Origin: a virus
Virus record (IMG/VR): IMGVR_UViG_3300033571_009592
Span: 1 to 51,643 of that record
Strand: one strand, 5' to 3'
Length of the DNA: 51,643 nt
The position numbers were made by a program, and so were the translations under genes. Below are positions 8 to 38,133 of this stretch, piece after piece. Position 1 is the first letter of the stretch; the number at the start of each line of letters is the position of its first letter. Under the pieces are notes generated by a model. The model did not search any database. It was not told the origin of the DNA and was given only the letters and a program-made list of their open reading frames with translations.

Positions 8-208
8 ATGATAAATAATTGTAAATGTTGTGGGCGTAATTTAGATTTAAGGTTTGGTGTTTGTTTTGATTGTGCGGATGCGGAATCAGTAATTGTAGAA
101 GGTGTTGATATGTGGGATAAAGAAATTCCTAAAATAGAAGGTTTATCAACATCCCTTTCTAAATTACAATACATTCTTAAAAAATTTGATATAACTAAAA
201 ATCAATAA
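8..208 (+). CDS. Small zinc-ribbon-like protein
   Basis: This 66-residue protein begins with a compact cysteine-rich module: C5-x-x-C8 and C19-x-x-C22 form a plausible four-cysteine zinc ribbon, followed by an acidic helical tail. I do not recognise a named family. It lies immediately upstream of the first tRNA-like element. Zinc binding is inferred only from cysteine spacing. Confidence 0.6.
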   Translation: MINNCKCCGRNLDLRFGVCFDCADAESVIVEGVDMWDKEIPKIEGLSTSLSKLQYILKKFDITKNQ

Positions 209-214
209 ACTAAT

Positions 215-291
215 AGTCAGGTGTCGGTGAGTACGCACAGCAATGGGATATCTCCCTACTGAAGTTACAGGTTCGATTCCTGTCCTGATTA
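215..291 (+). tRNA. tRNA-like element 1 (aberrant anticodon arm)
   Basis: Acceptor AGTCAGG (215-221) pairs with CCTGATT (284-290), followed by discriminator A291. The T arm is canonical: stem ACAGG/CCTGT with loop TTCGATT (267-283). No good D stem can be drawn and there is no normal anticodon arm. The obvious hairpin in that region is GGGA-TATC-TCCC (245-256) with a 4-nt loop; a looser 7-nt loop alternative places U in a position-33-like slot but has a poor stem. No CCA is encoded. It may be a degenerate tRNA, a tRNA mimic or a processing signal; decoding ability is doubtful. Confidence 0.4.
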
Positions 292-306
292 CTAAAAATT
301 AAAATT

Positions 307-399
307 ATGGATAAAAACAATCTAAGTGAAATTAATACTTTTGAAGGCTATGATTCAAATGGTAATCCTATATTTAGTGTAATATATTTAACTAAGTAA
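307..399 (+). CDS. Micro-protein in the tRNA-like cassette array
   Basis: A 30-residue ORF starting MDKNNLSEIN and ending VIYLTK. Its ATG lies 15 nt after the discriminator base of tRNA-like element 1, a spacing repeated for the next two small genes, which is the main reason to believe it. No recognisable domain; function unknown. Confidence 0.45.
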   Translation: MDKNNLSEINTFEGYDSNGNPIFSVIYLTK

Positions 400-405
400 A
401 ATATT

Positions 406-551
406 AGTCAGGTGGCGGAATGGTTAGACGTATCGCAATTACACTTACAAGTGAACTACCACCATAAATCCAAAGTAGGTTGTACAGAAACGCTTTGGTA
501 AGGGTAAGTTGATAAAAGGTTCACGTACAGGTTCGAGTCCTGTCCTGACTA
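406..551 (+). tRNA. tRNA-like element 2 with about 60-nt insertion
   Basis: The acceptor AGTCAGG (406-412) and CCTGACT (544-550) pair perfectly and the T arm (527-543) is canonical. The D arm resembles tRNA-Leu (GGCGGAATGG around 414-423). The anticodon region gives either CACT-TACA-AGTG (442-453) or a 6-nt loop reminiscent of a Val UAC loop. Beyond it, GTGAAC (451-456) can pair with GTTCAC (519-524), enclosing a structured insert that contains CCAAAG/CTTTGG. At 146 nt it is far longer than a tRNA and far shorter than a group I intron-containing one. Confidence 0.4.
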
Positions 552-565
552 CAAAATTTAAAAAT

Positions 566-787
566 ATGGAAAAAGAATTAGAATTAGAATTGTACACAAA
601 AGATGACATGATAAAATTTGCTGAGTATTGCGCTCAAACTGGAAGAAGTTTGTATGATAAACGTGTTTTAATAGATGAAGATGATTTTGATGAAAATAAA
701 CTACCAAATAGTAATGTTTGGATGATGTATGGGCAAGAACCTCTTAGTACAGAAACTTTATTAAATAAATTTAAACGTAGAAATTGA
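566..787 (+). CDS. Small acidic protein in the tRNA-like cassette array
   Basis: 73 residues starting MEKELELELYTKDD. The reading frame is open further upstream into tRNA-like element 2, but the ATG at 566, 14 nt after the discriminator base of that element, matches the spacing of the neighbouring cassettes and is the better start. The protein is acidic and predicted helical; I do not recognise a family. Confidence 0.6.
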   Translation: MEKELELELYTKDDMIKFAEYCAQTGRSLYDKRVLIDEDDFDENKLPNSNVWMMYGQEPLSTETLLNKFKRRN

Positions 788-801
788 TTAATAATTAATA
801 T

Positions 802-876
802 AGTCAGGTAGTATTAACTGGGAGAACTGTTGGCGTAAAACCCGATGAGATACAGGTTCGAATCCTGTCCTGACTA
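802..876 (+). tRNA. tRNA-like element 3, 8-nt anticodon loop
   Basis: The most tRNA-like of the four. Acceptor AGTCAGG (802-808) pairs with CCTGACT (869-875), discriminator A876, canonical T arm (852-868), 5-nt variable region. The anticodon stem GTTGG/CCGAT (829-833/842-846) pairs with two wobbles and encloses an 8-nt loop, CGTAAAAC (834-841), instead of 7 nt. If T836 is position 33 the anticodon would be AAA. The D stem is weak. Eight-nucleotide anticodon loops are known from frameshift-suppressor tRNAs; whether this one decodes is unknown. Confidence 0.55.
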
Positions 877-891
877 CAAAAATTAAATAAT

Positions 892-1158
892 ATGGAAATA
901 TTAGAAGAAGTTTATGATGTAATTGCCCAATGTAGAGGAATAGTTGAACTTGGTGCAGTATCTTTCTCTATTGGGGATAAAACTTATTATGTGGATATAG
1001 AAGAGAGTAATGTTCACGGTCATCACTATTTTAAAGTGTTTCTTAATAATCCAGATGAAGACATATGTCCAGAAACAAATTCAGAAACAGGTGAAGTATC
1101 GGATCCTGAATTTATTAAGTTCATTGAAGAGGAATATAGAAATGGTTCGAGATATTAA
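892..1158 (+). CDS. Small protein in the tRNA-like cassette array
   Basis: 88 residues starting MEILEEVYDVIAQ, acidic, with alternating hydrophobic strands in the middle (FSIGDKTYYVDIEE). Its ATG is 15 nt after the discriminator base of tRNA-like element 3. No family recognised. The conserved tRNA-like/ORF spacing suggests coexpression and perhaps release of the mRNA 5' end by tRNA 3' processing (inference). Confidence 0.65.
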   Translation: MEILEEVYDVIAQCRGIVELGAVSFSIGDKTYYVDIEESNVHGHHYFKVFLNNPDEDICPETNSETGEVSDPEFIKFIEEEYRNGSRY

Positions 1159-1181
1159 TAATTAAAAAAATAAAGTATTTT

Positions 1182-1278
1182 AGTCAGGTGGCGGAAATTG
1201 GTAGACGCGCAGCAAAGTGCTGATGTCAAAAGTATCCCGATAGCCAGGGATGTGCGGGTTCGAGTCCCGTCCTGACTA
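1182..1278 (+). tRNA. tRNA-like element 4 (Leu/Ser-like class II, contracted anticodon loop)
   Basis: Acceptor AGTCAGG (1182-1188) pairs with CCTGACT (1271-1277); discriminator A1278. The D arm is Leu-like with G18G19 (1200-1201); the T arm (1254-1270) is good; ATCCC/GGGAT (1234-1251) forms a class II variable arm. The anticodon position holds CAGCA-AAG-TGCTG (1210-1222), a perfect 5-bp stem with only a 3-nt loop. A shifted alternative gives loop ATGTCAA (GUC) with one mismatch but leaves about 8 extra nt. tRNA-derived by shape; decoding is questionable. Confidence 0.5.
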
Positions 1279-1297: not shown

Positions 1298-1329
1298 TTT
1301 GGCAGATTGAAATATTATTTATATCTTTG
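1298..1329 (+). promoter_or_regulatory. Bacteroidota-type promoter
   Basis: TTTG (1298-1301), 20-nt spacer, TATCTTTG (1322-1329): matches the -33/-7 pattern of the Bacteroidota primary sigma factor. It lies between the tRNA-like array and the ATG at 1349 and would drive the operon starting with the CCA-adding-type enzyme. Confidence 0.7.
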
Positions 1330-1580: not shown

Positions 1581-2318
1581 ATGCCTAAAATATATAAAGT
1601 TGGTGGTTGTGTGAGAGATGGTATCTTAGGTATCGAATCTAAAGATATTGATTTCACATTTGTTTTAGATGACTTGAATCAAACTGTAGAAGAAGGATTT
1701 GAATCTATGACCGACTGGTTGGCACATGAGGCGTTCGGTATATTCCTTTCCACACCTGAATGTTTTACCATTAGGGCGAAATTCCCTAAATGTGTTCCGA
1801 ATGAAGGGTTAGTTGCAGATTTTGTATTGGCTAGAAAAGAAGTTGGGTACAAAGAAGGTACTAGACAACCTATTTTGGAATTAGGTACTTTGGAAGATGA
1901 TCTGGTTAGAAGAGACTTCACCCTCAACGCAATGGCAATCGATGAAGACGGTAATTTAATTGATTTATTTGGTGGTAAGGAAGATTTGAAAAAAAGAATT
2001 CTTAGAACCCCATTGGATCCAAGAGTTACGATGATGGATGATCCTTTGAGAATACTTAGGGCATTGAGATTTTCAATCACTAAGGGGTTTGAAATAGATG
2101 ATTCTATTTTTGTTGCAATGTCTCAACCTGAAATTCTTGAAAAATTAAGAACTACAGTTTCAGTTGAAAGAATTAGAGATGAGGTTTTCAAAATGATGAA
2201 ATATGATACCATTTCTACAATCAGATTGTTAACTAATGTAGATAAAGAACTCATACCAGGATTTTTTGAATTAGTATTCTCTAAAGGTCTTTGGTTAAAA
2301 CCAACATTTGAGCAATAA
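1581..2318 (+). CDS. cca: CCA-adding enzyme-type tRNA nucleotidyltransferase (short)
   Basis: A class II tRNA nucleotidyltransferase/poly(A) polymerase head domain. GGCVRD near residue 8 is the nucleotide-binding GGxVRD motif and DIDFTFV carries the two metal-binding aspartates; RRDFTLNAMA and DPLRILRALRF mark the head-neck region. At 245 residues it keeps head and neck but lacks most of the body/tail found in full-length enzymes (about 400 residues), so it may add only part of CCA, or A residues. The start at 1581 places MPKIYKVGG just before the motif. The four upstream tRNA-like elements lack encoded CCA, so 3'-end addition or repair is the natural role. Confidence 0.85.
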   Translation: MPKIYKVGGCVRDGILGIESKDIDFTFVLDDLNQTVEEGFESMTDWLAHEAFGIFLSTPECFTIRAKFPKCVPNEGLVADFVLARKEVGYKEGTRQPILELGTLEDDLVRRDFTLNAMAIDEDGNLIDLFGGKEDLKKRILRTPLDPRVTMMDDPLRILRALRFSITKGFEIDDSIFVAMSQPEILEKLRTTVSVERIRDEVFKMMKYDTISTIRLLTNVDKELIPGFFELVFSKGLWLKPTFEQ

Positions 2319-3977: not shown

Positions 3978-4841
3978 ATGGTATTAAATTTAGCAAACGA
4001 GGAATTAAGTAATATAAAATATAAAATATCTAAATTCCCAGATGGTCAACAAGATGTTACCATATTTAAAATTGGTAATTATATAAATAAACAGAGTGAG
4101 GTTACAATCAAGTCTAGATTTAATGATTTTAAAGATTTAGAGTTGATAATTTGTTCTACCAAGGCACTTAGGAATATGGGGGTGGAGAAAATACATCTTT
4201 ACATTCCTTATCTATTAGGTGCGAGAAGTGATAGACAATTTGTTGAGGGCGGAACATCGTATTTAAGAGATGTAATTGCACCCATTTTAAACTTACAAAA
4301 TTATAGTAGTGTAAGTTGTATAGATGCTCATAGTGATGTCGCTAGTGCATGTATCAACAATCTAAAAGTTATAGACAATCATGGGTTTATTAAAATTGCC
4401 TTAGCAAGACATAATCAGATTAGTTTAAAAAATGCGGTAGATTCATTTACGTTAGTATCTCCAGATGCTGGGGCACTTAAAAAAATATATAATTTAGCCA
4501 ATAATATTCGTTATAACAAAGATATTTTGATTGCTTCAAAACATAGGGATATCCAAAGTGGTAAGATATTAAGTACTTATGTTCCACTTAGAGACGGTGA
4601 ACACACAAATAATAATTTTCTAATTGTTGATGATATCTGTGATGGTGGTAGAACATTCATTGAAATTGCGAAAGTGATTCATGAAATAAGACCAAAGGCT
4701 AAAGTATCATTGGCAGTTACACACGGTATATTTTCAGCAGGTTTTAATGAACTAAGTAAGTATATTGAACATATATATTGTACCAATTCTATATACAATA
4801 TTGAAGATAATTTTAATATAACTCAAATAGATGTTTATTAA
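3978..4841 (+). CDS. prs: Ribose-phosphate pyrophosphokinase family protein (candidate NARP1 Adps)
   Basis: 287 residues with the PRPP-synthetase layout: KFPDGQ near the start, YLLGARSDRQF (ATP/ribose loop), CIDAHSD, SPDAGA, ASKHRD (catalytic-flap lysine) and the PRPP loop VDDICDGGRT near residue 220. It is slightly shorter than bacterial Prs (about 310-320). Canonical function is ATP + ribose-5-P to PRPP. In phages a Prs-like enzyme paired with a NAMPT-like enzyme is known as NARP1, where the Prs homologue pyrophosphorylates ADP-ribose; a NAMPT homologue lies 3.2 kb downstream on the same strand. Which substrate this one uses cannot be read from motifs. Confidence 0.9.
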   Translation: MVLNLANEELSNIKYKISKFPDGQQDVTIFKIGNYINKQSEVTIKSRFNDFKDLELIICSTKALRNMGVEKIHLYIPYLLGARSDRQFVEGGTSYLRDVIAPILNLQNYSSVSCIDAHSDVASACINNLKVIDNHGFIKIALARHNQISLKNAVDSFTLVSPDAGALKKIYNLANNIRYNKDILIASKHRDIQSGKILSTYVPLRDGEHTNNNFLIVDDICDGGRTFIEIAKVIHEIRPKAKVSLAVTHGIFSAGFNELSKYIEHIYCTNSIYNIEDNFNITQIDVY

Positions 4842-5518: not shown

Positions 5519-5681
5519 ATATTATGATATTGATCCTGATAGTGGTGACACTATTAATGATCAATTAGTATGTATATGCCCAAATGAAATGTTATGTGAT
5601 TGGGTATATTCTGCATTAGTAAGGGATATGTCTTTAGATTATGACAACCCTAATAGAAAATTTTATATAAAAAAACAGTAA
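5505..5681 (+). CDS. Small hypothetical protein
   Basis: 58 residues starting MLEIRYYDIDPDSGD and ending FYIKKQ. It overlaps the membrane protein by 14 nt and the following gene by 1 nt (TAATG). The tight junctions on both sides support a real gene. It contains CICPNEMLCDW; no family recognised. Confidence 0.6.
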   Translation: MLEIRYYDIDPDSGDTINDQLVCICPNEMLCDWVYSALVRDMSLDYDNPNRKFYIKKQ

Positions 5682-6157
5682 TGAAAAATGTAATTAAACC
5701 ACCACAGTCAGTAGTTAAAAATAGTAAAAAAGGATTTACTAAAGTATTTTTGGCGGGAACTATTGAAATGGGTAATTCAGAAGATTGGCAAACGAAAGTA
5801 TCTGTAATTTTAAAAGACAGACCTTATACAATTCTAAACCCACGTAGAGATGAATGGGATTCTTCTTGGGAACAAAAAATAGAAAACCCGCAGTTCTATC
5901 AACAAGTTAATTGGGAATTAGACGCACTTAATAAATCGGATATTATAATCCTTTATTTATTACCCGATTCAAAATCACCGATATCGTTATTGGAATTAGG
6001 ATTATACGCAAATAGTGGGAAATTATTGGTTTGTTGTCCAGAAGGTTTTTGGAGAAAGGGTAATGTTGAGGTAGTTTGTGAAAGATTTAACATACCTTTA
6101 TACGAAAATATTGAAAAACTTTTGGAAGATAACTTTTTTATTACTAATTTTGTATAA
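5681..6157 (+). CDS. Nucleoside 2-deoxyribosyltransferase-like protein
   Basis: 158 residues with the nucleoside deoxyribosyltransferase-like fold pattern: VFLAGTIEMG (N-terminal strand and glycine turn), ILNPRRDEW, QVNWELDALNKSDIIILYL and SLLELGLYA, where the glutamate of LLELG matches the usual catalytic position. Such enzymes cleave or exchange N-glycosidic bonds of deoxynucleosides or nucleotides. It lies between the Prs and NAMPT homologues and may feed salvage or remove nucleotide-derived signals. Family call is good, substrate unknown. Confidence 0.75.
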   Translation: MKNVIKPPQSVVKNSKKGFTKVFLAGTIEMGNSEDWQTKVSVILKDRPYTILNPRRDEWDSSWEQKIENPQFYQQVNWELDALNKSDIIILYLLPDSKSPISLLELGLYANSGKLLVCCPEGFWRKGNVEVVCERFNIPLYENIEKLLEDNFFITNFV

Positions 6158-8057: not shown

Positions 8058-9605
8058 ATGAAAACAATTAATCCGTTACTTTTAACAGATGGTTACAAAA
8101 CAGGTCACCATCAACAGTATCCAGAGGGTACAACATTAGTCTATTCAAATTTCACACCTAGAAGTTTGAAACACGCCCCAAAACATTGTAATGAAATTGT
8201 TTCATTCGGACAACAAATGGTTATGAGAATCATTCATGAATCTTTTGATAGAGATTTCTTTTCTTTACCTAAAGAAGTTGTTTGTGGTGAAATGAAGCGT
8301 GAATTATCATTATACTTAAATACTGATTATGATGTTTCACACTTTGAGGCTCTTTGGGATCTACAATATCTACCTATTAAGGTAAAGGCAATTGAGGAAG
8401 GAAATATTGTGTCGGCAAAAATTCCAGTGTTAACAATCTATAACACACTTCCTGAATTCTATTGGATTACCAACTATTTGGAAACAATCATTTCCAACTT
8501 ATTGTGGAAACCAATGACATCCGCAACAATCGCACATAACTACAGAAAGGTATTAACATCTTGGCAAGAAAAAACAGATGCTGAACGTGGTTGGTTTATC
8601 GATTGGCAAGGTCATGACTTCTCAATGAGAGGGATGGATTCAATTGATGCAACAATATCATCGGGCATTGGGCATTTAGCATCATTCTCTGGTTCAGATT
8701 CACTACCAGCAATCTATGGGGCTAGAAAGTATTACGATGAAAGTGGATTTATTTCAGGTTCGGTTAATGCGACAGAACACTCGGTTATGTGTGCTGGAAC
8801 CAAAGATGATGAAGTCGGAACATTCAGAAGGTTACTGGAAACATATCCTACAGGAATCTTATCAGTTGTGTCTGATACTTGGGATTTATGGAAAGTATGT
8901 ACCGAACACGTAGTTACTTTGAAAGAAGAAATTATGAATCGTGATGGTAAACTTGTTATTCGTCCTGACTCTGGAGACCCAGTAGATATTCTTTGTGGTA
9001 CCCAAAGAATGGCGGATGATGCATGTAATAAATCACCTGAAGGGCATGGTGTAATTGAATTACTTTGGGGTGTATTTGGTGGAACAATCAACGAACAAGG
9101 TTACAAAGTTCTTGACCCACACATCGGAGCAATCTATGGTGACTCAATCACAATCGATAGGGCAGATGAAATCTGCGAAAGATTGGAAGCAAAAGGATTT
9201 GCATCAACAAATGTGGTATTAGGTATCGGTTCATTCACTTACCAATATAATACTAGAGATACATTTGGATTCGCAATGAAGGCAACTTATGTTGAAGTTA
9301 AACACTGGGATGTTGCAACCGAAAGACTTAATGAGTCTTTTGATAAAAACGCAAACCCAGAATGGATTGAGGGTAGAGAAATCTTCAAAGACCCAATCAC
9401 TGATGACGGAACTAAAAAATCTGCAACAGGTTTACTTTGTGTGAAAAAAGATTACGATGGTAAATATACTTTAATTGATAAGGTTACTTGGGAAGGTGAA
9501 AACACTGGAGAACTTAAAACTATTTATTCTGACGGTAATTTTTATAACATCACAACTTTAACTGAAATACGTCAAAGATTGAGTAGAGTTTTAGAAACAG
9601 TTTAA
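8058..9605 (+). CDS. nadV: Nicotinamide phosphoribosyltransferase family protein (NadV; candidate NARP1 Namat)
   Basis: 515 residues, close to the usual length (human NAMPT about 490). Hallmarks: LLLTDGYKTGHHQQYP at the N-terminus, NATEHSVM near residue 240 containing the catalytic histidine, RPDSGDP, YGDSITIDR and the TRDTFGFAMK region. It joins nicotinamide to PRPP or, in NARP1, to ADP-ribose pyrophosphate, regenerating NAD+. A Prs homologue lies upstream on the same strand. No NMN adenylyltransferase is visible in the window, which favours NARP1 over NARP2 unless one lies elsewhere. A terminator follows at 9626. Confidence 0.93.
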   Translation: MKTINPLLLTDGYKTGHHQQYPEGTTLVYSNFTPRSLKHAPKHCNEIVSFGQQMVMRIIHESFDRDFFSLPKEVVCGEMKRELSLYLNTDYDVSHFEALWDLQYLPIKVKAIEEGNIVSAKIPVLTIYNTLPEFYWITNYLETIISNLLWKPMTSATIAHNYRKVLTSWQEKTDAERGWFIDWQGHDFSMRGMDSIDATISSGIGHLASFSGSDSLPAIYGARKYYDESGFISGSVNATEHSVMCAGTKDDEVGTFRRLLETYPTGILSVVSDTWDLWKVCTEHVVTLKEEIMNRDGKLVIRPDSGDPVDILCGTQRMADDACNKSPEGHGVIELLWGVFGGTINEQGYKVLDPHIGAIYGDSITIDRADEICERLEAKGFASTNVVLGIGSFTYQYNTRDTFGFAMKATYVEVKHWDVATERLNESFDKNANPEWIEGREIFKDPITDDGTKKSATGLLCVKKDYDGKYTLIDKVTWEGENTGELKTIYSDGNFYNITTLTEIRQRLSRVLETV

Positions 9606-9625: not shown

Positions 9626-9650
9626 AAAACCCACAATTGTGGGTTTTTTT
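9626..9650 (+). terminator. Rho-independent terminator after nadV
   Basis: AACCCACA (9628-9635) pairs with TGTGGGTT (9638-9645) and is followed by a T run to 9650. It ends the operon that closes with the NAMPT homologue. Confidence 0.85.
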
Positions 9651-9666
9651 ATTAAAAATAAATTAC

Positions 9667-9674
9667 TATATTTG
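9667..9674 (+). promoter_or_regulatory. -7 element of RNA ligase promoter (leaderless)
   Basis: TATATTTG, a perfect Bacteroidota -7 box, only 4 nt before the ATG at 9679. The -33 region is T-rich without a clean TTTG. The geometry predicts a leaderless or nearly leaderless transcript and also selects the start at 9679. Confidence 0.65.
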
Positions 9675-9678
9675 TATT

Positions 9679-10734
9679 ATGAATGAAGTTTTAAATAAAT
9701 ATGTTGAGGATGGGTTGTTATATAAACAAATTCACCCTACGTTAGATTTAACAATATGGAATTATAGTGAGAAGGTTCAATACGAATCTTTATGGGATGA
9801 AATAACTTTAATGTGTCGTGGGTTGGTTACAAATTCTAAAGGTGATATAGTCGCAAGACCATTTAAGAAGTTCTTCAATATAGAAGAAAATAAATATACC
9901 CCATCATCTGAGTTTGATGTTTTTGATAAAATGGATGGTTCATTAGGTATATTATTCTTTTATGGAGGTGAATCGGTTTTCGCCACCAGAGGTTCATTCA
10001 CTTCCGAACAATCAATAAAGGGGTTTGAGATGTTACAGAAGTATGATTACGATAAGTTACATAAAGATTATACATACTTATTTGAAATCATTTACGATGA
10101 TAATAGAATAGTTGTTAGATATGATTTTGAGGATCTTATATTACTTGGTATGATTAATACCGAAACTGGTTATGAGGTTGATTTATATTCTAATGAAACA
10201 GATGTAAGATTTAAAAATTTAATAACTAATTTAGGTTTTAAAGTAGTTAAGAAGTACGATGGTATATATGATTATTCCCTTTTAAAGGGTATGATTAAGG
10301 ATGATGAAGAAGGTTTCGTTGTTCGTTTCTCTAATGGAGATAGGATTAAGGTTAAGGGTGAAGAATATTTACGTCTACATAAGATAATGACAAATATATC
10401 CACCACTACTGTGTGGGAAATTTTATCAAGTGGTGGTAATATAGAAGACTTACTTAAAGATGTACCAGATGAATTTTATGATAAAATTAAAACTTACACC
10501 AGTAGTTTAAATTACCAATGGTATCAGTATTTTAATCAACTAGGTAAATCTTATGACTATTTTAGATATGGTAAATATGGGGATAAAGAGGTAGAACCAA
10601 CAAAGAAAGAATTTGCGGAATTCATAAAAGATAAACACCCAATAGTAAAGGCAATAATGTTTGCGATGTGGGATGGAAAAGATTATAATAAAATTATTTG
10701 GAAGGCATTAAAACCAGAATATAAAAAATTATAA
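9679..10734 (+). CDS. rnlA: T4 RNA ligase 1-type (Rnl1) RNA ligase
   Basis: 351 residues. Lys84 in KMDGSLG (84-90) is the nucleotidyl-accepting lysine of motif I; RGSFT, LFEIIY, EEGFVVRF and KVKGEEYLRLHK correspond to motifs Ia-V. Family role: ATP-dependent joining of RNA 5'-phosphate and 3'-OH ends, classically repair of tRNAs cut by host anticodon nucleases. Partners in this window are a kinase at 13315, the CCA-adding-type enzyme at 1581 and a HAD_SAK-type protein at 27629. The frame is open upstream into the terminator, but the ATG at 9679 fits the TATATTTG box. Confidence 0.92.
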   Translation: MNEVLNKYVEDGLLYKQIHPTLDLTIWNYSEKVQYESLWDEITLMCRGLVTNSKGDIVARPFKKFFNIEENKYTPSSEFDVFDKMDGSLGILFFYGGESVFATRGSFTSEQSIKGFEMLQKYDYDKLHKDYTYLFEIIYDDNRIVVRYDFEDLILLGMINTETGYEVDLYSNETDVRFKNLITNLGFKVVKKYDGIYDYSLLKGMIKDDEEGFVVRFSNGDRIKVKGEEYLRLHKIMTNISTTTVWEILSSGGNIEDLLKDVPDEFYDKIKTYTSSLNYQWYQYFNQLGKSYDYFRYGKYGDKEVEPTKKEFAEFIKDKHPIVKAIMFAMWDGKDYNKIIWKALKPEYKKL

Positions 10735-21229: not shown

Positions 21230-22309
21230 ATGAAAATAGTAAATATATTAAATGAAGGTAAAATTAATAATATACATAGAAAATTATTAAACGCAATTAA
21301 TAATTCTTTGGGTTATGATGACTCTATTGAAGACGCTTGGACATTTTTAAGTGATGACTTATCTATTGATGATATGGATTTAAAAATAGAGGTTTTACAC
21401 CTATATAATCAATACGATGATGAAGAAGGATTTAATAATCTACAGGATTCAGATTTGGATGGGGCAGGAAACATTGATAATGATAGAATAATGGCGTTGG
21501 CGTTATTTTTAGATGTACCACCTATTTTAATTGAGGACATGATGTACTCACATTTTGATATGAATACATATAAAGATTTGACTACCGAAAAAGTTTATGC
21601 CGTTGGTGATGAAAGTGAGGCAGAAGAATCTATGAGACTTTATTTTTCAGATTTTGTTGATAATCAAGGAGGTTTAGAAAATATCGACAGATATTTATTA
21701 GATGACTATATAGAAATTGATGAATATGTAGTGAGACAATTCGCTAGAGAAGAGGCGGAAATTATTGTTGATGATATGGATGAAGATGATGTTATTAGTG
21801 AAGCGGGTTATGATAAAGATGATATAGAATCAGTTATTGAGGACTTAGAAGAAAAAATTAGTGAATTAAATGATGAGATAAGAAGTTTAGAATCTGAAAT
21901 GGATGAATTTATTTCAGATAATGATGAAGGTGATTATGATTCAGAAATAGAAGATTTAGAGGAAAGAATTAATGAATTAATGACTGAAATGAGTAATTTA
22001 GAATCTCAGTTAGAGACAGAAAAAAGTAATTTAGAATCTCTTTATGAAACCGCCAAAGAAGAGTTAATAGATAAAAAAGAAGAAGAAATATATGATAATA
22101 TAGAATATAGCGGGGTAGATTATTTTACAAATGAACTAGGTTATACTTTTACAGATGCAGTTAATCGATACTTTACATTAGATGAAAGTGCGTTAGAGGA
22201 ATATTTGGCAGAAAATGAAGATAGAGGTCAAACTTTAGGACCCTATGACGGACAAGAAAATGAACAATATTATGATGGTACATATTATTTTATATACAGG
22301 ACAGATTAA
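21230..22309 (+). CDS. Acidic coiled-coil protein with LxE propeptide
   Basis: 359 residues. MKIVNILNE gives a predicted L-N-E cut after residue 9. Residues about 10-75 contain the helical module shared with other tagged proteins (FLSDDLSIDDMDLKIEVLHLY). From about 200 to 285 a long Glu-rich coiled coil carries heptads and an SNLES repeat. The C-terminus is Tyr-rich. The strong acidity resembles scaffold or DNA-mimic internal proteins, but function is unknown. First gene after an ATATTTATA motif; heads a five-gene tagged cluster. Confidence 0.65.
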   Translation: MKIVNILNEGKINNIHRKLLNAINNSLGYDDSIEDAWTFLSDDLSIDDMDLKIEVLHLYNQYDDEEGFNNLQDSDLDGAGNIDNDRIMALALFLDVPPILIEDMMYSHFDMNTYKDLTTEKVYAVGDESEAEESMRLYFSDFVDNQGGLENIDRYLLDDYIEIDEYVVRQFAREEAEIIVDDMDEDDVISEAGYDKDDIESVIEDLEEKISELNDEIRSLESEMDEFISDNDEGDYDSEIEDLEERINELMTEMSNLESQLETEKSNLESLYETAKEELIDKKEEEIYDNIEYSGVDYFTNELGYTFTDAVNRYFTLDESALEEYLAENEDRGQTLGPYDGQENEQYYDGTYYFIYRTD

Positions 22310-27308: not shown

Positions 27309-27632
27309 ATGAATTATATAATCGAAGAAATTTATGAAATATCTTGTGATACTGATAAGATATTAACTGTGGTATTTAGATTAGAAGGTGATGGTGAAGA
27401 TTATTACAGAAAATTAGTAGATAGTGATTACTATAACTGGTGTAATGAACATTATATATCTGAAGGTGAAAATTTTTACGAATTAGATATCTATGATGAT
27501 GAAGAATACATGCCTGATTATTTTAATTACGATAAATGGAATATGTATTATTCTAATGAAGACATGGTTATAGACTATATTATGGATAATTACCCATCTT
27601 TAAAAAGTCTACCTTCGGCACAGATAGATTAG
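27309..27632 (+). CDS. Very acidic hypothetical protein
   Basis: 107 residues, about a quarter Asp/Glu with many Tyr (NEHYISEGENFYELDIYDDEE). Compact alternating strands suggest a folded domain; strong acidity is compatible with a DNA mimic, without further support. Convergent with the long minus-strand gene; the two stops overlap by 4 nt. Confidence 0.55.
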   Translation: MNYIIEEIYEISCDTDKILTVVFRLEGDGEDYYRKLVDSDYYNWCNEHYISEGENFYELDIYDDEEYMPDYFNYDKWNMYYSNEDMVIDYIMDNYPSLKSLPSAQID

Positions 27633-29437
27633 TAAACCAAATTAACTATTAAATCTATACCGTTCTCTTCTCCCCATCGTTCAAATTCGATTGAGTGTGG
27701 TTCTCTATCCTCCCACATTTCTATTTGTTCTACGTTAGGGTATCTTAAAACTAATGATCTTAGTGTATTTATTTTACTACCTAATGTATCACCATTACCT
27801 TTGTAATGATATTCATCAAACTGAATATTATGTAACTTTAAAAGTCCTTCTACTTGTTTAGATTGTTGTGGTAGTCTACCTGTCAACATAATAACTAAAG
27901 TATTAGGTTTTTTTAATTCCAACCTATAATCCACTACAGTTTGTTCTATTGGTTGAATATCGAATATTGAATCATCTAAAGATTCTGGTTTACTCCACCA
28001 ACCAATGTGAGGGTATTTTTTTCCAGTAATTTTCTCCCAATGATTTTTACCTTCTTCTGGATGTGGCGTATCCATAAGAGTACCATCAAAATCAAAAATA
28101 GATATTTTAGTTATGTTATTTGTATTTTCTTTAATTAATTTTTTATTAAATCTAACACTTTCATTTAAATCTAAAACACTTCCTTGTATCCAGTTAGTTA
28201 AATCTTCTATTGGAACAAGATGACTTTTACCTTCATAAGTGAATTTAATTTTATTAGAACCTAAATCTACATCGTTACTATAGAATTCTAATTTACCATC
28301 CTCACTTCTATATAAATCTATTTTGTCACTAACTTTTTTCACTAATTTAAATCCTAATTTTTCAATCAGTTCGTTAAACCTTCTTCTATTTTCTAGTAAT
28401 TCTGATAAATCTATATCACCCTCTTCAATTATCGAATCTATTATCCTCCTCAACGTTCTATTAAATTCTGTAACTACATCCTCAATACCTTCTTCATCTA
28501 CCCACTTTTCATAATAAGAATCTTCTAAATAAACACTTGGTTGTATTTCAGCATCTTTTAATTCTGATAAATTTAATAAATTTTTTTCTATAATTATTTG
28601 TACTAAATCCTCATATGGAACTTCTATACAATAAGAACCACTACTACAACTAGCGTCTTTTATATTATATTTTATTTCTGAATCGTATTTCTCTCTTGTT
28701 GATGCGTTTCTACCTCTAGTAACTGCGTAACCCAATTCAGTAGTATAATCAGATACAATAGTGTTATAATATTCTGTAGGTAATATACTATCTAAAAATT
28801 TTGCGATGACACCCGATTCCATTGGGTTTGAGGAATCTTTACCTGGCCAATCATTTTTACCTGCAATCGTTGCTAATTCTTCTAAAAGCTCTATAGTTTC
28901 TTCATTGGTATAGGGATAATTAAATTCATCATCGTCCATTTCATCATAATCATCACCATATGTACTATGTGCTTTGTTATAAACCCATAAATCATTTTCA
29001 TCTAAACCAGAAAAATATTTCTCCCAGTCATCAGAATCTAATTCTAATGTAACAGAATCATCATTCCAAACAATACAAGGTGTCGTACTTCTCCATCCAC
29101 CACATTCTACATTAAACCAGTCACCGTATATTTTTTCTAATTTTTCGTATTCATTGTCATACATATAATCTATGTAATCCGACCTTTCAGAATCAGAATT
29201 AAAAGAACTCATTTTCTTAATAAAAGATAAAAGAGTACTATCATCATATTCTATTTCGTTATAATCCCCCTCACCTTTAGTATAATACCATATAGAGTAT
29301 AAGTGGGCGGCTTCTTTTGAATCTAAACCTAAATCATCCTTTAGGAATTTAAATGCTTTATTTTTATCACTAACATCATATAAATGTTGATCTAAATATG
29401 TTAGAAATTTTATTTCTGGTTTACTTAATTTTCTCAT
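27629..29437 (-). CDS. HAD_SAK-type (RNA-repair-like) HAD domain protein with internal LxE-type site
   Basis: 602 residues. Residues about 442-602 are a HAD domain: IFDFDGTLMDTPH (nucleophile Asp), VIMLTGRLPQQS and MWEDREPHSIEFE, matching the Swiss-Army-Knife RNA-repair-like HAD group. The N-terminus carries the helical module shared with tagged virion proteins (FLKDDLGLDSKEAAHLYSIW) but no N-terminal tag. Just before the HAD domain, RFNKKLIKE resembles a capsid-targeting/cleavage sequence. Hence possibly a virion protein split by the prohead protease, or an RNA 3'-end phosphatase. Has an ATATTTATA motif in its sense orientation. Confidence 0.65.
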   Translation of the reverse strand: MRKLSKPEIKFLTYLDQHLYDVSDKNKAFKFLKDDLGLDSKEAAHLYSIWYYTKGEGDYNEIEYDDSTLLSFIKKMSSFNSDSERSDYIDYMYDNEYEKLEKIYGDWFNVECGGWRSTTPCIVWNDDSVTLELDSDDWEKYFSGLDENDLWVYNKAHSTYGDDYDEMDDDEFNYPYTNEETIELLEELATIAGKNDWPGKDSSNPMESGVIAKFLDSILPTEYYNTIVSDYTTELGYAVTRGRNASTREKYDSEIKYNIKDASCSSGSYCIEVPYEDLVQIIIEKNLLNLSELKDAEIQPSVYLEDSYYEKWVDEEGIEDVVTEFNRTLRRIIDSIIEEGDIDLSELLENRRRFNELIEKLGFKLVKKVSDKIDLYRSEDGKLEFYSNDVDLGSNKIKFTYEGKSHLVPIEDLTNWIQGSVLDLNESVRFNKKLIKENTNNITKISIFDFDGTLMDTPHPEEGKNHWEKITGKKYPHIGWWSKPESLDDSIFDIQPIEQTVVDYRLELKKPNTLVIMLTGRLPQQSKQVEGLLKLHNIQFDEYHYKGNGDTLGSKINTLRSLVLRYPNVEQIEMWEDREPHSIEFERWGEENGIDLIVNLVY

Positions 29438-37608: not shown

Positions 37609-38133
37609 ATGGATATAAAGAATATAATAGATGGTTGTCTAAAAAACAATAAAAAATCTGAATACGAATTATACAAATGTTGTAAATCTGTTGCACATAA
37701 AACAGTAAAACAATATATTAAAAATGATGTATTGTTAGATGACGTTATTCAAGAAGGGTTTATTAGATTATATAAAAATATTAATAAATATGATTTTGAA
37801 GGTAGTTTTGAGGGTTGGGTATATAGAATTTTTAAAAACATCTCAATAGACTATTTAAGAAAGAAAAAAATTGTTTTTGAATATAATGACAGATTAGAAG
37901 TTGTGGATAATGGTTATGATCATACTATAGACGAAAGACTGAAAGATATAAAAGATTTAGTTAAGACTTTACCAGAATCTTATAAAATTGTAACTACTTT
38001 ATATTATTATGAGGGTTTAAAACATAGAGAAATTGCAGAAAAAATAGATATTAATGAAGGAACTTCTAAAGCTTATTTACATAGAGCTAAAGGAAAAATA
38101 ATAAAAAAATTAAAAAACAAAGATTATGTTTAA
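37609..38133 (+). CDS. ECF-type sigma-70 family sigma factor
   Basis: 174 residues, normal ECF length. Region 2: LLDDVIQEGFIRLYKNINKY and VYRIFKNISIDYLRKKK. Region 4: LPESYKIVTTLYYYEGLKHR, EIAEKIDINEGTSKAYLHRA. There is no sigma region 1.1 or 3. Expressed from a host-type promoter, it could redirect RNA polymerase to the ATATTTATA motifs found before virion-type genes (inference). It overlaps the lipoprotein gene by 8 nt; no classical membrane anti-sigma factor is visible. Confidence 0.9.
   Translation: MDIKNIIDGCLKNNKKSEYELYKCCKSVAHKTVKQYIKNDVLLDDVIQEGFIRLYKNINKYDFEGSFEGWVYRIFKNISIDYLRKKKIVFEYNDRLEVVDNGYDHTIDERLKDIKDLVKTLPESYKIVTTLYYYEGLKHREIAEKIDINEGTSKAYLHRAKGKIIKKLKNKDYV

Follow-up and report, generated by a model that had tools for sequence, protein, structure and literature searches.

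Virus-borne tRNA-like elements that carry variable modules in place of the anticodon region

An array of four tRNA-like elements

The IMG/VR virus record IMGVR_UViG_3300033571_009592, a stretch of 51,643 bases here termed the window (with positions counted from its first letter), has at 215-1278 an array of four tRNA-like elements that alternate with small open reading frames (ORFs). The elements, with ends counted through A73, are:

215-291, plus strand: element 1, tRNA-like RNA; acceptor 215-221/284-290, T arm 267-283, A73 at 291
406-551, plus strand: element 2, tRNA-like RNA with a Leu-type D arm; acceptor 406-412/544-550, T arm 527-543, A73 at 551
802-876, plus strand: element 3, tRNA-like RNA; acceptor 802-808/869-875, T arm 852-868, A73 at 876
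1182-1278, plus strand: element 4, tRNA-like RNA with a Leu-type D arm; acceptor 1182-1188/1271-1277, T arm 1254-1270, A73 at 1278

An array with a common acceptor had been described in the original prediction and is confirmed in number and position, with acceptor pairing of 7/7 in all four elements (AGTCAGG with CCTGATT or CCTGACT). Each element has a 5-bp T stem, a TTCGANT loop, A73, C74 and a U:A pair at position 3:70. The T stem is ACAGG/CCTGT in three elements and GCGGG/CCCGT in element 4, in agreement with the near-identical T arm predicted for three of the four. The combined T-arm and acceptor pattern is found at exactly four sites in the window, which are the elements, and at none in 100 shuffles of the window.

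The region where an anticodon arm would be is non-canonical, and none of the four elements has a 7-nt anticodon loop. Element 1 has a hairpin with a 4-nt loop at this site (GGGA-TATC-TCCC, 245-256), element 3 a hairpin with an 8-nt loop (TTGG-CGTAAAAC-CCGA, 830-845), and element 4 a hairpin with a 3-nt loop (CAGCA-AAG-TGCTG, 1210-1222) followed by a second hairpin at 1233-1252. These loop sizes are as predicted; by contrast, the 4- or 6-nt loop proposed for element 2 is not upheld, as the minimum free energy fold has no anticodon arm and instead presents a branched module of about 74 nt (451-524) that adjoins the T arm. Scores with tRNA models are low: ARAGORN calls only element 4 in the window, as a doubtful tRNA-Ala, and the gathering score of the Rfam tRNA model (RF00005) is reached by elements 2-4 (32-37 bits) while element 1 falls below it (19.4 bits), compared to 48-72 bits for most ordinary tRNAs of related phages. 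When folded alone, the central parts of elements 1-3 are no better than shuffles (z -0.5 to -1.0), and that of element 4 is better (z -2.4). The evidence for the class of element is taken from family comparison and not from the folding energy of the four window copies.

A large family with a conserved tRNA frame

Elements of the AGTCAGG-type family (for which TLS is used as shorthand, with L-numbers as labels of carrier loci) are numerous and virus-borne. At least 120 IMG/VR matches have the T-arm/acceptor pattern and at least 120 the D-arm pattern; from the matches listed, 315 unique elements were extracted, and the family total is therefore at least 315. Full searches of 40 carrier contigs gave as many as 11 signatures per contig, mostly on the same strand. 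As one pattern selects only one end of an element, the opposite end provides an unbiased test of the tRNA frame. The exact AGTCAGGT is present upstream in 105/127 sites selected by the T arm, and a T loop with CCTGACT is present downstream in 127/161 sites selected by the D arm; neither is found in shuffles.

The frame that is conserved across the family includes the acceptor, the D and T arms, U8, A14, G18G19, U48 and A73-C74. U48 is found in 82% and A73 in 91% of the elements, A14 and the D-loop GG are usual, and C74 has the same frequency (97%) in TLS and in the ordinary tRNAs of their contigs, compared to 19% at random sites. Conservation of the arms and of these residues indicates retention of both the outer frame of a tRNA and its 3' border. 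Among the tRNAs of the phages themselves, tRNA-Leu is closest to the chassis, and the top-scoring canonical matches are Leu(UAA) genes. Most elements are 70-180 nt in length, and some are only 66-77 nt with 4-nt loops.

Two other features accompany the family. A second tRNA-like chassis of 69-70 nt (CGGCTAT...ATGGCCG), in which the loops are likewise of 4 or 6 nt and the middle varies, is located directly 3' of AGTCAGG elements in L163, L182, L188, L202 and L205. A hairpin with an exact GGAAAGAC loop (rough consensus TGAC-N-GCTC-GGAAAGAC-GAGC-AA) lies a few bases 5' of 12/313 elements (0.13 expected), in L001, L004, L018, L042, L045, L054, L062, L095, L106, L151, L210 and L212, and occurs 33 times across all loci; a search of the window found no copy there.

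Replacement of the anticodon region

The non-canonical anticodon region that was predicted for the array extends family-wide, far beyond the window. The middle of the element, i.e., the module in the anticodon region, is hypervariable across the family and spans about 20-140 nt, with a median length of 54 nt (5-95% range, 22-131 nt). Canonical-like arms (at least 4/5 pairs, a 7-nt loop and U33) are found in 17/179 elements, compared to 9.9 expected from shuffles. An internal control, in which one anticodon-arm test was applied to all tRNA-like genes of the carrier contigs split by acceptor, gives 14 canonical and 204 non-canonical arms for AGTCAGG acceptors and 2 canonical and 20 non-canonical arms for six close variants of AGTCAGG that were counted apart. 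By contrast, all other acceptors in the same contigs have 199 canonical and 26 non-canonical arms. Ordinary tRNA sets coexist with the elements (e.g., 19 ARAGORN genes in L024), and a few copies of the elements are themselves normal tRNAs (L026, Lys-UUU, and L115, Thr-UGU). ARAGORN labels several elements Leu, Glu, Ser or '???'. Family comparison reveals no sequence conservation from position 27 onward and no anticodon-stem exons that flank the insert.

Conservation, exchange and combination of modules

The middles of 105/315 elements group into 37 clusters. In most clusters, the middles share 70-100% identity, and the 150 bp on either side are unrelated (about 50% by global alignment). The reverse is also found, in which related phages have flanks that are 87-100% identical on both sides and unrelated middles at the same locus. 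In the L004/L164 pair, the flanks are 99.5 and 100% identical and the middle is 29% identical; further swap pairs are L024/L106, L066/L160, L154 and L192/L209, L019/L116, L163/L182 and L131/L138. Nine elements have a D-loop hairpin, and the D-loop and central modules combine independently, with a D-loop insert common to L048 and L101 and a center common to L101 and L108. Within one module family, termed family C, the D-loop insert is present in L224 and L225 and absent from most others.

Modules are also noted outside the AGTCAGG chassis. A D-loop hairpin (e.g., GGTATTATAGCTCAGTGGAGATTTATCTCCTTTGGTAGAGC) occurs in otherwise normal phage tRNAs of the L091, L108 and L101 clusters, and one module of about 105 nt is carried on two chassis, GGTTGGG/CCCAACC and AGTCAGG (L131 4433-4588, L132, L138 and L139 5317).

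Covariation within module family C

Family C was collected by a scan for the 3' part of the module and part of the T arm, with the acceptor unconstrained, which gave 23 stretches to which MW202828.1 adds one. Among the 25 listed elements, the acceptor is AGTCAGG or AGTTAGG in 22 and is AACAGAG/CTCTGTT (two elements) or AGTGCAG/CTGCACT in the remainder, with all seven pairs kept. The module consists of an 8-bp helix at the position of the anticodon stem, a 4-bp inner helix capped by a 7-nt loop and, 5' of the T stem, the conserved strand GTGGTATAAAT; as GTGGTATAAAT was part of the search pattern, independent support for this strand comes only from the first six members. In an alignment of 16 sequences, 11/23 pairs have changes on both sides, a count reached in 0/500 shuffles. 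In an alignment of 8 sequences that includes the inner helix, 14/27 pairs have changed on both sides, and the covariation score is 0.418 compared to 0.162 in shuffles (0/500 as high). While such shuffle tests can be inflated by kinship of the sequences, structures slid along the alignment nonetheless score only 0.02-0.09. The compensatory changes are in the module helices and in the acceptor stem.

A family C element is found in the published genome of the complete circular podovirus MW202828.1 (L242; 61 kb, Manatee Spring), in which it follows a short zinc-ribbon ORF and has the acceptor AGTGCAG/CTGCACT. A second element of this phage appears, by eye, to be a minimal form with D and T arms about 10 nt apart and no anticodon arm, and is followed by a terminator-like hairpin (L242 about 523-705). 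Neither element is annotated in MW202828.1, and ARAGORN finds no tRNA in this genome.

Distribution and host

The elements are nearly confined to viruses. The D-arm signature was sought in 84,980 species genomes of bacteria and archaea and is found in six stretches, all in contigs of metagenome-assembled genomes (MAGs), which are probably viral or misbinned. Of 396 genomes from the phylum of the Flavobacterium MAG, that MAG alone matches (0 of the other 395). Promoter-like sites of Bacteroidota type (TTTG-N-TAnnTTTG) number 10 in the window, compared to 2.2 expected, a count found in 0/100 shuffles; together with the MAG names, these sites suggest that the hosts of the carrier viruses are probably Bacteroidota. 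No publication or Rfam family for this RNA class was found in the full-text literature, a search that lay outside preprints and most subscription journals, and of the Rfam 15 models only RF00005 reached gathering score by cmscan in the window and in eight carrier loci.

Neighboring genes

The ORFs and other features that surround the array, and the window genes related to RNA processing or repair, are:

8-208, plus strand: 66-residue ORF with a Cys-rich start, 5' of element 1; no Pfam or PHROG match
307-399, plus strand: 30-residue ORF that starts about 15 nt after A73 of element 1, a spacing typical of the family
566-787, plus strand: 73-residue ORF that starts about 14 nt after A73 of element 2; a longer ORF at 509-787 has no family match
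892-1158, plus strand: 88-residue ORF that starts about 15 nt after A73 of element 3; no family match (Pfam, PHROG)
1298-1329, plus strand: promoter-like site of Bacteroidota type (TTTG-N-TAnnTTTG) just 3' of element 4
1581-2318, plus strand: CCA-adding/poly(A) polymerase head-domain protein (PF01743, 3.5e-21; PHROG tRNA nucleotidyltransferase, 1.3e-60)
9637-10734: T4 Rnl1-type RNA ligase
27629-29437, minus strand: 602-residue protein that matches a polynucleotide kinase PHROG and has, at its C terminus, a HAD domain as in 'Swiss Army Knife' RNA repair proteins

The location of the promoter-like site suggests that the array probably ends the preceding transcript. An RNA ligase and a CCA-adding enzyme are encoded in the window, as had been predicted, yet they do not form a unit with the elements: RNA ligase is found in 4/30 and CCA-adding enzyme in 1/30 other TLS-bearing contigs, and a partnership with either enzyme is rejected. 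Searched from the side of the enzyme, TLS signatures are present in 11/15 phages that have a close relative of the window's CCA enzyme.

Other genes are noted at a distance from the array. A weak integrase-like match (1.4e-5) is located at 21230-22309, 20 kb away, and a phage-encoded sigma-70 region 2/4 protein of 174 residues, a size similar to extracytoplasmic function (ECF) sigma factors, at 37609-38133. Genes for phosphoribosyl pyrophosphate (PRPP) synthetase-like, nucleoside deoxyribosyltransferase-like and nicotinamide phosphoribosyltransferase proteins are clustered (3978-4841, 5681-6157 and 8058-9605) and constitute an NAD (nicotinamide adenine dinucleotide) salvage set that may counter NAD-depleting defenses.

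Proposed nature of the elements

Based on the sequence comparisons, the elements very probably represent a new class of viral RNA. They are envisaged as small non-coding RNA genes on a tRNA chassis, in which the anticodon region, and sometimes the D loop, is exchanged for modules. By established tRNA biology, the array would share a transcript with small ORFs or with real tRNAs, RNase P would cut at +1, and host 3' processing and CCA-adding enzymes would complete the end, such that a stable, non-decoding tRNA-like RNA would be set free; excision from the polycistronic message would leave a short leader on the next ORF. The module would probably serve as a decoy or inhibitor by binding to an RNA or protein of the host, with counter-defense or host takeover as the most plausible role of such binding, and either role would explain the rapid swapping of modules. 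As the same module is found beside unrelated genes, it does not serve one neighbor and, thus, the mature RNA is proposed to act in trans, which is somewhat more likely than not. An arms race with host factors would be consistent with the fast-changing outward part, the constant processing frame and the near absence of the elements outside viruses. Overall, the reading that is favored, at somewhat better than even odds, is of tRNA-matured, trans-acting RNAs with swappable cargo and perhaps an anti-defense role. A further proposal is tentative and, taken as a whole, rather doubtful: a plug-in effector system of Bacteroidota viruses in which one host-matured chassis would carry modules that each neutralize a different host factor and are traded among phages, as an RNA counterpart of anti-defense gene islands.

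Several points weigh against the favored reading. The RNA class is predicted from sequence, and a role of the RNAs as anti-host decoys, deduced only from the turnover pattern, is a possibility that falls short of even. Two thirds of the modules (210/315) have no relative in the sample, exact-pattern searches with stretches of window modules 2 and 4 gave no match elsewhere, and the mean folding z of the modules is only -0.73. The similarity and complementarity of modules to Bacteroidota rRNA are at shuffle level. The longest complementary match to the fetched surroundings averages 9.09 nt compared to 9.21 nt in shuffles, and a function as antisense guides against these surroundings is rejected on this basis. 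Half of the elements precede an ORF start, at a distance from A73 that peaks at 13-16 nt, and this would also fit a processing or a leader role.

Alternative explanations

This spacing speaks for an alternative, considered unlikely, in which the elements are tRNA punctuation that only marks cuts by RNase P and 3' tRNase and provides short leaders for ORFs, with the middle as filler. An ORF starts within 60 nt after 49% of TLS, compared to 27% of ordinary tRNAs and 25% of random sites, and in the window ORFs start 14-15 nt after three of the elements; however, many elements sit within tRNA clusters, and modules that are conserved in unrelated contexts and covary are unexpected of filler. The position of half of the elements just 5' of ORF starts would also suit a cis-acting leader of the next ORF (riboswitch, T-box-like or thrS-like operator), an option of very low probability given that the same module adjoins unrelated downstream sequence and that elements also reside at transcript ends, as in MW202828.1 before the terminator-like hairpin. 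Decoys or cleavage-resistant substrates of anticodon nucleases (PrrC or VapC type), a role raised in the original prediction, would be in keeping with the phage tRNAs known to counter such nucleases (PMC10264068, PMC11555353) and with the T4 Rnl1-type ligase and the RNA-repair HAD domain encoded in the window. This role would need anticodon-loop mimics, and arms with a 5-bp stem, 7-nt loop and U33 are near chance in the family; with RNA ligase in just 4/30 carriers and module shapes that vary from hairpins with 4-nt loops to domains of over 100 nt, the proposal is not sustained and is regarded as very unlikely. The idea of tRNA mimics, likewise raised in the original prediction, may hold in a general sense.

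Recombination sites that resemble integron attC, with paired 7-bp ends, a variable middle and small-ORF cassettes, are suggested by the inverted ends, the alternation with small ORFs and the module swaps. The earlier suggestion of recombination elements holds insofar as modules are exchanged and breaks in flank homology coincide with the elements (82%, compared to 44% at random sites), but such breaks are no less common at ordinary tRNAs (89%); moreover, the tRNA-specific T loop, A14, U48 and C74 are conserved, and the modules are themselves conserved and covarying, leaving attC-like sites a highly improbable account. The same low standing is given to intron-interrupted ordinary tRNAs and decaying tRNA pseudogenes. 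While the few normal copies (L026 and L115) are compatible with either, there is no conserved anticodon-stem exon sequence on either side, the 54-nt median module is too short for a group I or II intron, some elements are as small as 66-77 nt with 4-nt loops, and one in MW202828.1 appears to be without an anticodon arm. Decay, in turn, would not spare the frame while modules keep covarying.

Comparison to known systems and significance

Transfer-messenger RNA (tmRNA) has a tRNA-like domain in which the anticodon arm is replaced, the D stem is missing and G3:U70 serves as the alanine identity pair. The elements are similar in that a tRNA top half is joined to a different RNA domain where the anticodon arm would be, but differ in having a D stem, U3:A70 instead of G3:U70, and modules of about 54 nt; an ARAGORN search of the window found no tmRNA gene. 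Integron attC sites share the 7-bp inverted ends, variable middle and array with small ORFs, and are distinguished from the elements by the tRNA-specific conserved features of the latter and the lack of a TLS-specific recombination signal.

The nearest working analogy is provided by the tRNA-miRNA-encoded RNAs (TMERs) of murine gammaherpesvirus 68, viral RNAs with a tRNA-like part to which stem-loop cargo is attached, the sequence of which can be loosely constrained (PMC4838037). The TMER stem-loops are 3' of the tRNA-like part and depend on RNA polymerase III and Dicer in a eukaryotic virus, whereas the cargo of the elements is inside the cloverleaf. ROOL and GOLLD are likewise structured phage RNAs near tRNA islands, of unknown function, yet are large (many GOLLD exceed 800 nt; PMC12286853), while the elements are mostly 70-180 nt, and the window and eight carrier loci have no ROOL or GOLLD match at the Rfam gathering score. 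Phage-encoded tRNAs share the location in tRNA clusters, the tRNA frame, the N73-C74 border and the Leu(UAA)-like chassis; by contrast, the elements almost all lack a decoding anticodon arm, use one chassis for many copies and have swappable modules. Phage tRNAs act in counter-defense by the supply of tRNAs that can decode and that either withstand cleavage or take the place of those cleaved (PMC10264068, PMC11555353), and the elements cannot act in this manner.

If expressed as predicted, the elements would constitute a widespread class of viral non-coding RNA that has been missed or mislabeled as odd tRNAs in annotation, and part of the tRNA genes reported in large uncultured phages would need to be re-read. 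The outer frame of tRNA would then be a general-purpose carrier for evolving RNA modules, and the family a natural collection in which to look for RNAs that target host factors.
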